DNA from: an uncultured Brachyspira sp.
Lineage (GTDB): Bacteria; Spirochaetota; Brachyspiria; Brachyspirales; Brachyspiraceae
Direction: 5' to 3'
NCBI GenBank assembly: GCA_934725525.1
Contig: CAKVCG010000057.1
Coordinates: 1 to 10,645 of the forward strand
DNA: 10,645 nucleotides
Positions 3,687 through 10,645 of the stretch are shown in pieces. The number at the start of each line of letters is the position of its first letter. The first letter of the stretch is position 1. The position numbers and the translations under genes are program-made. The notes under the pieces are model-generated. The model had not been told where the DNA came from, did not search any database, and saw nothing but the letters and a program-made list of their open reading frames with translations.

Positions 3687-3720
3687 GTCATTGCGAGCGA
3701 TAGCGTAGCAATATAAACTA
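3687..3720 (+). repeat. GTCATTGC...GCAAT dispersed repeat, copy D (short)
   Basis: GTCATTGCGAGCGATAGCG followed by TAGCAATATAAACTA carries only the palindromic core, without the AT-rich left arm of the other copies. ATTGC and GCAAT form the stem. It lies 21 bases after the secreted protein gene, in the same orientation as the other copies in the window. Confidence 0.65.
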
Positions 3721-3766: not shown

Positions 3767-3794
3767 TTGACAAATAAAATTATTCTGTTATAAT
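3767..3794 (+). promoter_or_regulatory. Consensus promoter giving a leaderless rpn message
   Basis: Perfect TTGACA (3767-3772), a 16-base spacer, and perfect TATAAT (3789-3794) with the extended -10 TG at 3786-3787. Counting the last T of the -10 box as -7 puts +1 on base 3801, the A of the ATG. There is no ribosome binding site (bases before ATG read ATATTCTT). All six bases of both boxes are consensus, which is unusual even in AT-rich DNA. Confidence 0.8.
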
Positions 3795-3800
3795 ATTCTT

Positions 3801-4730
3801 ATGAAAAGAAATAGAGAAATAAACAAGTTAAATGACTTATTTGTCCGATACTTGCTCGGAAAAATTGGAAACGAAAAAGTGCTTGAAGATATGGTTAACG
3901 CGGCTTTAAGCGATTTCAATTTTGAAGAAGTTAAAGATTTGGAAATAATCGACCCTTATAATTTATCCGACAATATTGATTTAAAAGAGTCAATTATAGA
4001 TATAAAAGCAAAAACTAAAGATAATCAAACGGTAATAATCGAAATTCAACTTTGCGGAAATATTGATTTTTTAAAAAGAATTTTTTATTATGCTTCAAAA
4101 AATATCGTAAACGAACTAAAGGAAGGAGAAGATTATAAACTACTCCCAAGAATAATAAGCATCAATTTATTAAATTTTAATTTAGATTTCGGAGACAAAG
4201 GACAACCTCACAGATGTTTTAAATTAATCGACACAAAAAACCATAATGTAGATTTGGACTTTATTCAAATGCATATTTTGGAAGTTCAAAGATTTATCGA
4301 AATAATTGAAAAATCAACTGCGGACGAATTAAAGAAAAACAAACTTTTAACTTGGATGAAATTTTTCACAAGCAAAAATTTAAAAGCGATAGAAAAAGAA
4401 CTCAAGGAGGCAAATCCGATTATGACAAAAGTAATTGAAGAGTATAAAAGATTTACTTCTGACGATAAATTAATGCGAGCCTATGACGCACGAGACGCAT
4501 TTTTATTAGGGCAAAAAATAATGCTTAACAGAGAACGAGAAGAAGGCTTAAAAGAAGGAATTGAAAAAGGAATAAAGAAAGGAAAAATTAAAGGTATAAA
4601 AGAAGGTATTGAAAAAGGAAAACTTGCCGAACAAATCTCAATGGCAAAAACAATGAAATCAAAAAATATGGATATTAATCTTATAAGCGAAATTACAGGA
4701 TTAACCATCGAAGAAATAGAAAAACTATGA
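3801..4730 (+). CDS. rpn: Rpn-family PD-(D/E)XK nuclease (recombination-promoting nuclease / 'putative transposase')
   Basis: This complete 309-residue protein is a DNA endonuclease of the Rpn/PF12784 type; E. coli relatives cut DNA and have been linked to recombination and phage defence. The N-terminal LNDLFVRYLLG (10-20) is the family start. The PD-(D/E)XK core is visible as Asp67 in IIDIKAKT and Glu81-Ile-Gln83 in IIEIQ, followed by RIFYYASK (93-100). The nuclease domain ends near residue 170. Residues 195-240 are helical. Residues 249-273 form the typical Lys/Glu-Gly low-complexity linker (KEGIEKGIKKGK-like repeats). The last 30 residues (AEQISMAKTMKS...ITGLTIEEIEKL) are the conserved C-terminal helical end. 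All expected active-site residues are present and the gene is intact. Transcription is probably leaderless. No terminal inverted repeats flank it, so the 'transposase' label should not be read as an insertion sequence. Confidence 0.9.
   Translation: MKRNREINKLNDLFVRYLLGKIGNEKVLEDMVNAALSDFNFEEVKDLEIIDPYNLSDNIDLKESIIDIKAKTKDNQTVIIEIQLCGNIDFLKRIFYYASKNIVNELKEGEDYKLLPRIISINLLNFNLDFGDKGQPHRCFKLIDTKNHNVDLDFIQMHILEVQRFIEIIEKSTADELKKNKLLTWMKFFTSKNLKAIEKELKEANPIMTKVIEEYKRFTSDDKLMRAYDARDAFLLGQKIMLNREREEGLKEGIEKGIKKGKIKGIKEGIEKGKLAEQISMAKTMKSKNMDINLISEITGLTIEEIEKL
4404..4410 (+). promoter_or_regulatory. Internal ribosome binding site inside rpn
   Basis: AAGGAGG, a full match to the 16S rRNA 3' end complement, lies 11 bases before an in-frame ATG (4422). 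It is encoded by AAG GAG in Lys-Glu, whereas this gene mostly writes Lys-Glu as AAA GAA. That makes chance codon choice less likely. The spacing is slightly long. Confidence 0.45.
4422..4730 (+). CDS. Possible intragenic short Rpn product (RpnS-like, in frame)
   Basis: Initiation at Met208 of the Rpn protein would give a 102-residue protein (MTKVIEEYKRF...) lacking the whole PD-(D/E)XK domain but keeping the helical segment, the Gly/Lys-rich linker and the conserved C-terminus. In E. coli, rpn genes are known to encode such a short in-frame C-terminal product that binds and restrains the full-length nuclease. Here the internal start has AAGGAGG, while the full-length start has no ribosome binding site at all. 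The two products would therefore be translated by different initiation modes from the same message. Existence of the product is inferred from the signal and the precedent only. Confidence 0.4.
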   Translation: MTKVIEEYKRFTSDDKLMRAYDARDAFLLGQKIMLNREREEGLKEGIEKGIKKGKIKGIKEGIEKGKLAEQISMAKTMKSKNMDINLISEITGLTIEEIEKL

Positions 4731-4934: not shown

Positions 4935-4980
4935 AATTAAATAGTCATTGCGAGCCGAAGGCGAAGCAATCCAATTAAAA
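4911..4980 (+). repeat. GTCATTGC...GCAATCC dispersed repeat, copy B
   Basis: The left arm TGTATTTTTATCGACTTCGG continues into a shorter, diverged AT stretch. The core is GTCATTGCGAGCCGAAGGCG AAGCAATCC (4944-4972). ATTGC pairs with GCAAT, and GCC with GGC inside it. It overlaps the first codons of the methylase tail remnant, so the tail and the repeat are physically fused. Confidence 0.75.
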
Positions 4981-6314: not shown

Positions 6315-9300
6315 CTATTTTTTATTGTCAAAACTAATGTATATAGAGCCGTTATATTTATTTTTTAATATGCTATTGAATTTATCTATCAAATTACTAT
6401 AATTATTATTAACTTCTTCTTCATTAGAAATTTTATTAAAAAGTATCATATAGATAGTCTTAATAATTATATCTAATGAATTAACATATTCATTATTATT
6501 TATGTTATAAAAAATATCTATATAATCGCATAAATTTTCTAATGAACTATCATTAATATTATCATAGTCATTATACAATTCATAAAATATTTTTAGATTG
6601 CTATCATTTTTTAACTCTTTAAGAAATTTCTTAAAATTATTATTGTTTAATGTATAGTTTATATTATTAAAATGGCAGGCAAAAATAGAATCTATCATTA
6701 AAAATAGCGTTATGCCCGAATAACTTATGAAATTTGATTTCAAATTTAAAAATCTAATAATTACTTCGTCAATACTTTTATAACTTTCTTCTGAACATCT
6801 ACAATATATAAAAAACATAGTATCAACTTTTTTCTCTAAATAATTATTATTACAATGCTTATAAGCTATATTCGTAAAAGCTGGAATATTTAACTTTTTA
6901 TTATCTTCTATAATATGGCATTTATTTAATAATGATTTTAATATATCTTTTTTAGCAGCGTCACTTAATGAATTAATTATATTTATTATTTCAAATATAA
7001 TAGTATATTCCCCAGAGAATGAATACCAAAAGAAATCGCTTTTAGAAAAATATTTTATTAGGAATTCTTTTGCTAATTTATTTTTTACATTTGTTTCTTT
7101 AATTAAATTTGAATTAATTATTTTATTTAATATTTTAAATTCGTATTTTTGTGGTTTATCAAGAATTTGTATAATATCGTCAATGTTATCATTACTAAAT
7201 ATATATTTAAATACATCTAAATTAAAAAAATTATCTGTATTTTCATCAAATGAATTAGTTTGAAAATTATAAAATACTTTAGAATAAATAAATCCTAAAA
7301 AAATGATATATTTAGGAATATTCATTTTTATAAGGTTATCTATATCTGTTCCTATTTTTGGCATTTCAGTAGTTTTTGTATGATTTATATTTGAGTTAAT
7401 TTTTTCAGATAATAAAATCATTTTTAAAAATGGGCTATTTATACTATTATGTTGATTTAACACATATCGATTATTAATTATAATAGCTATAACTTCCGAA
7501 TACAAATCGGCTTCTTCACATTTAGATTTTATTATAAAGTCAACTAATGTATCGGGCGATATATAATATATTTTCTCTAATAAAAATGTCCATCCATATA
7601 TTGAAGTTCTATTATTTCTATATCCAAAACTGCAAACTTTATTAACCTCTATATATGATTTAGTTGAAAATTGATTATCTTTAATTATATCCAATATTTC
7701 ATTACTCATATAAAATGATAATCCGCTTTTTTTATAATATGAATCAATTAAATATTTTTCTACTTCCAATAATAATGAAGTTTTATCAGATATAGAGTTA
7801 ATATCGTCTTTAATTATTTTTTCTATTGATTTATAAATGTCTATATTAGGGCTTATATAGGCAAGAATGCCAGATAAAGATAAATAAGCTACCGCTTTGT
7901 TTTCTTTTTTTAGTTCTTTATATTTATCTAATATGTTATTATAGTTTTCATTTAATATTTTTTTTATATTTTCTGAATTAATATCAATATCTCCAATTAA
8001 ACTTTTAATATAATTATTTGCATTATTTTTACTATCTTTTATAAAATCTTCTAAATTTAATATTTCCTTTGATTTATTAAATACAATATCATCAATATAT
8101 TCTTTAAGTTCGTTATTTTCATTTATATCAATATAGAAAATACCAAGCGGATAATCTTTCATAACCGAATTTAAACTATTTGTCATTGAATATAATTTTA
8201 GAATATTTTGTTTTTTGATTAATAAATATCTATCATGTAATTTTAAATTGTTATCGTTAATAATTCTTAATTTAATGTTTAGATTATTTAATGAAAATAA
8301 ATTTGATATATTTTTTATTTGAGATATTAAATAATCCTTATTTTCTAATTTTGAAATAATCGTTATATTGCCAGATAGCCTATTTAATAATAGAAATAAA
8401 TTTTGAGTGCTTTTCATATTGGTATTATTTGGTTGTTCATTATTTACTTCAAAGAAAGGGTCTATAAAAATAGCTTCATCAGATTCTTTTACTAACTCTA
8501 TTATTTTATCAATACATTCTTTACTTCCTATATTTTCAAACCAATAACTTTCTTCATTGTGTAAATTTCCATTTTTTATGCTATTAGTTTTATTTATATT
8601 TCTATCAAAAATATTTCTATAATGTCTATATAAATTCTTTAATTGTAAATTATTGCTTCTATCAAAAGCGTTAATTTTTAAAGGAATATTAGTATTATGC
8701 GATGGTAAAGCGGAAAGATTTTTATTTTTCTTGCTTAAAAGGTCGTGAATACTAATTTGTTTTTCTATTATATTTATTATACCATTAAATTCAATTAATT
8801 TATAAAAAGTTTCTGTATATATTATATCGCCATCTTTATCAAAAATTTCTAAAGTATGAGCGCTTGGCGGAACTGAAACTACAATATTTTTTTCTATATC
8901 GTCTATATCTATTATTCCGTTAAAAATAATTTCACTAGTAGCGGATTCAAGAATTAATTTAGCTTTATAATTAATAAAATTACTATCAAATTTTATATTT
9001 ATATTTGTATCTTCAATACTAAAATTTACTTCGGCGGGCTGTTTATAAAATATTATATTATCTTTCATTATGTAAAAATATCCTAACGGAATAGAATTTT
9101 TATCGAAGAGTGGAGAGGCATATTCTTGCATTATATTAATAATACCGCTAATATCAAAATCTCCAAAATTATATTCTTGAAGCCATAAATTTTTAAATTT
9201 ATGCAAACTTATTATTGAATAGTTATTATCTACTTCATTTAAGCTAATTTCTGATATATATTTTACATTTATATTGTTTCCATTTTGCTTAAGTAAGTCA

Positions 9301-9545
9301 TATGAAAAAATTTCTTCATTTATAGATTTGTTATAAAAATTGGTAAATTCATTTTCATTTAAAATAGAATATGATAATTCTATTTTGTATTTTTCGTTTG
9401 GGTAATATTCTTTTAAATCTATTTCAAAAAAATTACTTTCGTTATTAAGTATGAATTCATTACATTTTATTATAAACCCAAAGAGAAATATTTTTTCATT
9501 TTCTGATACTAAATTGTATATATAACAAATATATTTATTATCCAT
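6315..9545 (-). CDS. Large phospholipase D-like protein, VPA1262-like; candidate defence effector
   Basis: The 1076-residue soluble protein is encoded 43 bases after the methylase on the same strand, probably one operon. Residues 1-270 are beta-rich. A PLD-like phosphodiesterase module spans about 330-490: WFENIG (335-340), AIFIDPFFE (358-366), KLHDRYLLI (435-443, His437) and YSMTNSLNSV (452-461). Only one H-x-R/K half-motif is seen, so it is either a half-site enzyme that dimerises or degenerate. The WF / DPFF / HDR / SLN order matches VPA1262-family proteins, also about 1000 residues, but this is recall, not a search. Residues about 500-1076 are helical, Asn/Ile-rich, with no domain I know. 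GGAGG at 9563-9559 lies 13 bases before ATG 9545, rather far, yet no better start exists. Very low G+C suggests acquisition. The N-terminal assignment is less sure than the PLD-like core. Confidence 0.6.
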   Translation of the reverse strand: MDNKYICYIYNLVSENEKIFLFGFIIKCNEFILNNESNFFEIDLKEYYPNEKYKIELSYSILNENEFTNFYNKSINEEIFSYDLLKQNGNNINVKYISEISLNEVDNNYSIISLHKFKNLWLQEYNFGDFDISGIINIMQEYASPLFDKNSIPLGYFYIMKDNIIFYKQPAEVNFSIEDTNINIKFDSNFINYKAKLILESATSEIIFNGIIDIDDIEKNIVVSVPPSAHTLEIFDKDGDIIYTETFYKLIEFNGIINIIEKQISIHDLLSKKNKNLSALPSHNTNIPLKINAFDRSNNLQLKNLYRHYRNIFDRNINKTNSIKNGNLHNEESYWFENIGSKECIDKIIELVKESDEAIFIDPFFEVNNEQPNNTNMKSTQNLFLLLNRLSGNITIISKLENKDYLISQIKNISNLFSLNNLNIKLRIINDNNLKLHDRYLLIKKQNILKLYSMTNSLNSVMKDYPLGIFYIDINENNELKEYIDDIVFNKSKEILNLEDFIKDSKNNANNYIKSLIGDIDINSENIKKILNENYNNILDKYKELKKENKAVAYLSLSGILAYISPNIDIYKSIEKIIKDDINSISDKTSLLLEVEKYLIDSYYKKSGLSFYMSNEILDIIKDNQFSTKSYIEVNKVCSFGYRNNRTSIYGWTFLLEKIYYISPDTLVDFIIKSKCEEADLYSEVIAIIINNRYVLNQHNSINSPFLKMILLSEKINSNINHTKTTEMPKIGTDIDNLIKMNIPKYIIFLGFIYSKVFYNFQTNSFDENTDNFFNLDVFKYIFSNDNIDDIIQILDKPQKYEFKILNKIINSNLIKETNVKNKLAKEFLIKYFSKSDFFWYSFSGEYTIIFEIINIINSLSDAAKKDILKSLLNKCHIIEDNKKLNIPAFTNIAYKHCNNNYLEKKVDTMFFIYCRCSEESYKSIDEVIIRFLNLKSNFISYSGITLFLMIDSIFACHFNNINYTLNNNNFKKFLKELKNDSNLKIFYELYNDYDNINDSSLENLCDYIDIFYNINNNEYVNSLDIIIKTIYMILFNKISNEEEVNNNYSNLIDKFNSILKNKYNGSIYISFDNKK

Positions 9546-9588
9546 AATATTATGCTTACCTCCAAATAACCAAATTTAATAATTTAAA

Positions 9589-10645
9589 TTATATATTTTC
9601 AACAATATTAATCTCTTCTATAGTTAAATCATATAATGTATAAACTATTTTGTCTATATTCCTTTCATCCTCTTCAGTATCCTTACCTTCTTTTTTATTT
9701 TCTATAATTTTTTCTACCAAATCCTCAATTTCTTTTAAAGTATTTTCATTAGGTTCAGGTATTGGTATTTTTTCTAAAGATTGAACATTTAGCATAATAT
9801 CCCCTGCTCCTGTTCTATCGCTATATTTATATATAAAGTATTTTATTAATTTAGAATTAAGTATTCCTACAAAATATTTATTTATATTAGATACGAAAAA
9901 ACTTGAAGGAGCGGATATAATTAAATCTTTTTCTGCAATAGTAAACGCTAAATTAAAACCTATTGCTTTGCAAAATACTTTTTCTTTTTCAAATTCTTTA
10001 TAATAAGCTGTTGCATCTTGAAGTTCAAACCATTTATTATTTGTCTTTTTTCTACAACCTATCTCTCCGCTTTGCTCTAATCTTTTACCAAAACTTTCTA
10101 AATATTCTTTTATAGCATGATATTCATTAATATCAATATTTTTTGATGGATATGTAGCTATTAAATATTTATTTTTAAATTCTATTTCATAAGGCTTTAA
10201 ATCCTTACCTCTAACTATTGGAAATATAATATCTTTACTTTTAATATCTTTTTTAATAAGTTCATTCTTTTTATTTTCATCAATTATAAATGCGTCATTA
10301 AAACCCGTTAAAATTCCTCTATACATTATTATATTCCATTCTTTTAGAGGTTTGCCGTATTTTATTATTTTATTTAAAATAGAATTTTCTTTTTCATTAG
10401 ACATAAACCAAGAATTAATATAATCTTTAGCATATATAAAAAATTCTTCGGAGGAAATTTTATTTACTTCTATATTATCGCAAAGATTAATTTTATAACT
10501 TTTTATATTTTCTAATTTGTTTTCTTTATTTAAAAGTTTTCTATAATTTATTATGCTTGTTTCGACAATAGCCGATTCAAACCAATTCGCGCCCAAATCT
10601 ATAATTTCAAAAACATAACAATTATTATATAAAAATTCTCTCGTT
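9589..10645 (-). CDS. Eco57I/TaqI-type N6-adenine DNA methylase or type IIG restriction enzyme, C-terminal part (5' cut by window edge)
   Basis: The frame is open to the window edge; a TTG at 10596 is merely an internal Leu in EIIDLGANWFESAIVETS, and the residues before it (REFLYNNCYVF) continue the fold. That block is the end of the methylase domain (pattern R-x-x-L...I-x-D-L...F-x-x-A-x-V-x-T). The SAM site and NPPY motif lie beyond the window. Next is a TaqI-like specificity domain: GILTGFNDAFIID (10317-10279), IVRGKDLKPYE (about 10218-10186), and VQSLEKIPIPEP at about 9783-9751. The tail IDKIVYTLYDLTIEE is the family ending. The enzyme would methylate adenine in a specific site; whether it also carries a nuclease cannot be told. 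It leads the operon with the PLD-like gene. PglX of BREX has a similar end and is an alternative. Confidence 0.8.
   Translation of the reverse strand, partial: TREFLYNNCYVFEIIDLGANWFESAIVETSIINYRKLLNKENKLENIKSYKINLCDNIEVNKISSEEFFIYAKDYINSWFMSNEKENSILNKIIKYGKPLKEWNIIMYRGILTGFNDAFIIDENKKNELIKKDIKSKDIIFPIVRGKDLKPYEIEFKNKYLIATYPSKNIDINEYHAIKEYLESFGKRLEQSGEIGCRKKTNNKWFELQDATAYYKEFEKEKVFCKAIGFNLAFTIAEKDLIISAPSSFFVSNINKYFVGILNSKLIKYFIYKYSDRTGAGDIMLNVQSLEKIPIPEPNENTLKEIEDLVEKIIENKKEGKDTEEDERNIDKIVYTLYDLTIEEINIVENI

Follow-up and report, generated by a model that had tools for sequence, protein, structure and literature searches.

Zhong et al. (2023; PMC10327210) showed for Escherichia coli that initiation within the rpn gene yields a protein, RpnS, which blocks the toxic nuclease RpnL. 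In the accessible text of that paper, repeats are described as tuning the RpnS-RpnL pairing, with RpnS starting 8–20 residues ahead of them, and the rpn genes have an internal transcription start site (TSS) whose short transcript is more abundant than the full-length one. The same text reports that a plasmid Rpn protects against phages and that the family is horizontally mobile. An earlier note on the DNA studied here had likewise named, for E. coli, a short C-terminal product inhibiting the full-length nuclease. The release of RpnL and the control of the RpnL:RpnS ratio were left as open questions by the discoverers.

Leaderless toxin-antitoxin transcripts are known as such, since 32 of the 37 toxin-antitoxin pairs with a primary TSS in Mycobacterium tuberculosis are leaderless according to the accessible text of PMC3898074. 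These are, however, two-gene modules, and no Shine-Dalgarno (SD)-led antitoxin inside a leaderless toxin gene is described in that text. Among the spirochetes, Leptospira interrogans has many mapped leaderless mRNAs, in which defense genes (COG V) are under-represented (PMC5243855, accessible text). Searches of the literature on leaderless mRNAs, on Brachyspira and spirochetes, on toxin-antitoxin and antiphage systems and on internal translation initiation listed no report of a leaderless rpn gene, nor any paper on the Rpn family in Brachyspira. For RpnS and RpnL, only Zhong et al. (2023) was found to be relevant, and the word “leaderless” does not occur in the accessible main text of that paper.

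An rpn Gene With Two Predicted Starts

The window, that is, the whole stretch of 10,645 nucleotides from an uncultured Brachyspira sp. that was analyzed, contains the following features:

3767..3772, + strand: -35 box TTGACA, read in the sequence
3786..3794, + strand: extended -10, TGTTATAAT, with TG at 3786-3787 and TATAAT at 3789-3794, read in the sequence
3801, + strand: predicted +1, coinciding with the A of ATG 3801 so that the mRNA would be leaderless, from the 6-nt gap to the -10
3801..4730, + strand: rpn open reading frame (ORF), full-length nuclease RpnL of 309 aa, from PF12784 and TIGR01784 profile matches
4404..4410, + strand: internal SD AAGGAGG, in the codons AAG GAG G, read in the sequence; codons fixed in clade 1
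4422..4730, + strand: in-frame internal start ATG 4422 (Met208) and predicted C-terminal product RpnS of 102 aa (residues 208-309), from sequence and conservation
4549..4620, + strand: 12-nt tandem repeat, corresponding to the 4-residue repeats of the C-terminal helix, read in the window

The earlier note had taken the ORF for an Rpn nuclease gene, with a consensus -35/extended -10 promoter placing the +1 on A3801, an ATG 3801 lacking a ribosome binding site, and an internal AAGGAGG 11 nt ahead of the in-frame ATG 4422 for a product of about 102 residues. As readings of the sequence, all of these held. In profile searches the ORF scored 134.2 bits against PF12784 (cut-off 27.4) and 132.8 bits against TIGR01784 (curated cut-off 52.1). 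The promoter agrees with the consensus at 12 of 12 positions, with a 16-nt spacer and a TG ahead of the -10, and six bases (3795-3800) separate TATAAT from ATG 3801. Since the -10 hexamer was set at -12 to -7, the predicted +1 falls on A3801; no SD was found ahead of this ATG in the window sequence.

In 63 relatives, D67 and E81 were invariant and Q83 nearly so; these are candidates for the PD-(D/E)XK-type catalytic residues. By eye, relatives differ in length by 4-residue steps. The named protein relatives among the best 120 of 1539 matches were from Brachyspira, and loci of B. catarrhinii were also found among the relatives. The gene is multicopy in this genus, with a match in 25 of 26 genomes and up to 66 tblastn matches per genome, fragments counted. 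A PF12784 search gave a match in none of 14 control genomes. No relative of the window gene was detected in the viral contigs searched, and its phage relatives amounted to five records, each below 60% identity. A structure model of the product (mean pLDDT 46) was not used, a single short match to a solved structure, that of a designed repeat protein, was uninformative, and a single weak PADLOC match (E 0.00038) was disregarded.

Regarding the neighborhood, a similar pair of REP-like short palindromic elements (ATTGCGAGC...AGCAAT) flanks rpn at 3690-3712 and 4947-4970. Further downstream, a 1076-aa ORF on the minus strand (6315-9545) weakly resembles the VPA1262 family, scoring 73.7 bits where the cut-off is 325, and the ORF beside it (9589-10596, minus strand) matches type IIG restriction-methylation enzymes in their C-terminal part. 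This ORF pair (6315-10596) is possibly a defense region.

E. coli RpnA and the window protein both pass TIGR01784 and thus belong to the same broad family, although their Pfam families differ (PF04754 and PF12784, respectively). As in the window, rpnA has an internal AAGGAG, before the ATG of codon 244, that precedes an in-frame C-terminal product, and 4-residue repeats in the C-terminal part are common to both systems. By contrast, AAGGA lies ahead of the full-length start of rpnA, whereas the start in the window is of the leaderless type, and RpnS comprises 49 codons in rpnA but 102 aa in the window. The most probable reading of the window locus, in our judgment, is a gene-within-gene Rpn toxin-antitoxin served by one promoter, in which RpnL would be leaderless and RpnS would be made from the SD-led internal start, this split setting a low toxin:antitoxin ratio.

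Conservation of the Internal Start

By itself AAGGAGG cannot be called rare, with one copy in the window against a chance mean of 0.39; this is within chance and therefore the case rests on conservation. The internal signal was defined as AGGAG or GGAGG 5–12 nt before an in-frame ATG within the 50–90% span of the gene, and was scored in the window gene and 96 fetched full-length rpn genes, 97 in all (L064, L110 and L218, below 250 codons, were left out). It was present in 93 of the 97, the four lacking it being L068, L112, L217, and L221. After synonymous shuffling, the same signal appeared in a mean of 10.8 and a maximum of 18 of 97 genes (100 shuffles), and among control ORFs of 200–450 codons it was found in 5 of 162 and 3 of 171. 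The conservation of this signal in homologues, put forward in the earlier note as a check, was thus observed.

The synonymous codons point in the same direction. In clade 1, the clade of the window (54 sequences), Lys202 is AAG in all 42 sequences having Lys and Glu203 is GAG in all 47 having Glu; for comparison, the median across 38 Lys/Glu columns was 0.16. Loss of the internal SD or ATG by synonymous change, which had been named as evidence against the proposal, was therefore not seen at these codons. Seven LIGG-type sequences have different amino acids at this place and six of them keep GGAGG, the other being L112, with GGGGG. A further codon constraint in clade 1 is seen at Lys178, the next-highest column, where 0.83 of the 46 sequences have AAG; this codon lies some 70 nt upstream of the internal SD.

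In most of the 38 sequences of clade 2, Lys-Glu and Met also stand at the clade-1 place, but AAG and GAG occur together there in none of the 38 rows (by eye). Instead, a GAG eight columns upstream, ahead of a different Met, is fixed in 38 of 38 sequences; the codon preceding it varies among Lys, Arg, Leu, Met and Glu, with G as its last base in every case. Since the codons are fixed at a different site in each clade, the nucleotide signal itself is under selection, and its position has shifted between clades. The comparison supports selection for an in-frame start that serves the C-terminal part separately.

The geometry of the window start is less typical. The commonest SD-ATG gap in the control genomes is 6–8 nt and the internal gap of clade 2 is 5–6 nt; because the 11-nt gap between 4404-4410 and ATG 4422 exceeds the usual 6–8 nt, initiation of the window RpnS could be weak. 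Moreover, the window repeats begin near residue 250, about 42 residues past Met208, whereas the distance reported for known RpnS is 8–20 residues.

RpnS might instead be produced mainly from an internal promoter of its own, through a short transcript as in E. coli (PMC10327210, accessible text), the initiation mode on the long mRNA then being of minor importance. Besides this precedent, an exact TATAAT lies some 88–97 nt upstream of the internal ATG in several genes of clade 2. Across the 93 genes, however, the best internal promoter score remained at the level of synonymous shuffles (9.30 against 9.28), and in the window it reached 9 against 8.7 after shuffling, by a simple consensus score that can miss real promoters. 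An internal promoter as the main source of RpnS is considered unlikely. With no internal promoter signal above that of shuffles, RpnL and RpnS in the window are probably made from a single transcript, unlike in E. coli.

Conservation of the Promoter-ATG Spacing

The spacing between promoter and full-length start was analyzed in 100 Brachyspira rpn loci chosen from among the matches listed, with starts set by homology and not by the promoter. One of them, L067, has a broken frame with no assigned ATG, which left 99 start-scored loci, all with distinct coding sequences; three (L216-L218) had been picked via a promoter search. An exact TATAAT was located 4–8 nt before the start ATG in 88 of the 99 loci, and at exactly 6 nt in 78. 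Omitting L216-L218, the spacing was present in 85 of 96 loci, 75 of them at 6 nt. A strict SD (AGGAG or GGAGG) was found before the full-length start in none of the 99.

Mechanically called ORFs of at least 120 codons, from 400 kb each of two genomes (G002 and G007), were used as the control. Here TATAAT lay 4–8 nt before an ATG in 9 of 297 ORFs (G002; two of these were rpn) and in 4 of 298 (G007), counts that are favored because several candidate ATGs were allowed per ORF, and a strict SD was found in 77 and 54 of these ORFs, respectively. The alignment-type check of this spacing that had been suggested for homologous loci was hence answered positively.

Including the window, 79 genes have the 6-nt spacing, and the base at -1 is T or C in all 79; in the two control sets, A occupies this position in 145 of 298 ORFs and in 99 of 299. 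The usual bacterial transcription initiator is a pyrimidine followed by a purine. These data support a leaderless-type full-length start for rpn, its 5' end being predicted from the -10 spacing and the -1 base. Judged from the aligned sequences, both features, the start spacing and the internal SD plus ATG, are conserved beyond the protein sequence and above chance.

The 11 loci outside this spacing were L075, L087, L088, L092, L095, L096, L101, L107, L113, L184, and L215. By eye, the 6-nt spacing is seen in L184 and L215 if an upstream ATG is used, and L095 has TATAGT at 6 nt; no clear -10 precedes the ATG in L092, L096, and L101. A stretch containing TTTTGG before the ATG was seen (by eye) in nine loci, L075, L085, L087, L088, L091, L099, L100, L107, and L113, four of which (L085, L091, L099, and L100) are counted among the 88. 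The mRNAs of these nine may begin with a short leader that holds a weak SD, and the minority they form is a possible natural contrast to the leaderless rpn copies.

Additionally, the promoter was searched across whole genomes. The 28-nt sequence of the window-type promoter was found as an exact copy 23 times in G002 and G001; in 20 cases the ATG of an rpn-like frame follows 6–7 nt downstream (by eye), and in the other three it does not. A search of G002 for TTGACA, a gap of 16–18 nt, TATAAT, 6 nt and ATG gave 28 sites, 17 of which open an rpn-like frame, broken copies counted. With a looser -35, 40 promoter-6 nt-ATG sites were obtained in G007 and G010, and 19 of the 30 examined were rpn-like. 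The reversed pattern gave no sites in G002 and two in G007 and G010.

Half of the 22 non-rpn sites from these searches of G002, G007, and G010 (L257, L262, L264, L269, L276, L279, L281, L293, L296, L303, and L307) open short frames that contain tandem repeats with units of 5 or 7 nt, such as AATTC, ACTAC, AGTCA, and CAGTCTA. Downstream of several of them lie an SD and the ATG of an ordinary-looking gene. From their sequences, these frames look like candidate phase-variable leader peptides.

The conserved promoter-start block could also have been kept as the operator of a lineage-specific regulator, perhaps RpnS itself, with leaderlessness as a by-product. Within the G002 lineage, different rpn clades are 0.83–0.88 identical over the 28 nt upstream of TATAAT, against 0.46–0.48 in comparison with other lineages, in hand-picked subsets that include the window and the promoter-chosen L216-L218, and a predicted helix-turn-helix relation of RpnS is noted in the accessible text of PMC10327210. 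The spacer, however, varies across lineages while TATAAT and the 6-nt gap persist, and the homogenization of the promoters could also stem from recombination. We hold an operator role to be rather improbable. Nor is it probable that the tight spacing was merely inherited, free of regulatory meaning, from one ancestral compact promoter as the family expanded: the copies are not independent, given a multicopy family that is horizontally mobile (PMC10327210, accessible text), but among the 79 genes the spacing is kept while the surrounding bases change, across 66 distinct 40-mers that form 19 clusters at 75% identity, and it is common to gene clades about 40% identical in protein.

rpn Starts Outside Brachyspira

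When 120 genomes from the phylum were searched, 11 rpn loci from other spirochetes were obtained, 10 of which were usable (L229 was unreadable). None of the 10 showed the promoter-ATG spacing, and an SD-like stretch was seen by eye at the start of five. The 12 Brachyspira loci of the same search did have the spacing, at 6–8 nt, measured from the second listed start in L240 and L243; L231 of this search is the same gene as L070.

Seven named rpn loci were also compared, six of them informative on the start (L314 is a split frame). The TATAAT spacing was found in none of the six, which come from E. coli, Priestia (L311), Megamonas, Leptospira, Cardinium, and Klebsiella, and an internal SD-type signal was present in five of the seven, all but L314 and L315. 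As in the window, an internal SD-type sequence and an ATG lie about 91–99 codons before the stop in the Priestia, Megamonas, Klebsiella, and Leptospira plasmid group (L311, L312, L313, and L316). Unlike the window, these four have no TATAAT 4–8 nt before the full-length ATG; in L. interrogans (L313) none lies near the start. Priestia L311 and Megamonas L312 belong to PF12784, like the window, but have a clear SD at the full-length start. On the Megamonas plasmid, a second Rpn-annotated frame (L312, 1159-1440) follows right after the first, which recalls the downstream rpnS copies of E. coli.

The predicted leaderless toxin start is thus the new element, found in most of the Brachyspira rpn copies examined, the internal antitoxin being already known (PMC10327210).

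Discussion

The layout of the window locus and its conservation at the nucleotide level are found, as read in the sequences, in most of the Brachyspira copies examined. In the mechanism that we favor, a strong promoter with its +1 on the A of the toxin ATG would drive the rpn unit, and the nuclease RpnL would be made by SD-independent translation starting at the 5' end of the mRNA. For the antitoxin RpnS (residues 208-309), translation would begin at the SD-led ATG within that mRNA; by analogy with E. coli, RpnS would bind RpnL through the repeat-bearing C-terminal part and hold it inactive. The split in initiation mode would then most likely serve to keep the toxin:antitoxin ratio low with a single transcript.

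The earlier note had placed toxin and antitoxin in one frame, separated by the mode of initiation. The Rpn gene, the leaderless-type start and the selected internal start stand after the comparison, and control of the ratio, like the use of leaderless 70S initiation for the nuclease, is kept as a proposal. From this layout and the E. coli system we infer where transcription starts, that both proteins are translated, that RpnL is inhibited in this Brachyspira sp., and that stress or phage attack might change the ratio. More tentatively, and with some doubt, the initiation mode might be a ratio switch of the whole Brachyspira family, so that a block of SD initiation, for instance during phage takeover, would free the nuclease from many copies.

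The codon evidence indicates that an internal antitoxin start has been selected outside E. coli, at different Met codons in each clade. The differing initiation modes kept across the genus would offer a testable answer to the question of RpnL release and of the RpnL:RpnS ratio, and the many natural rpn copies of Brachyspira are available for testing the control of this ratio.
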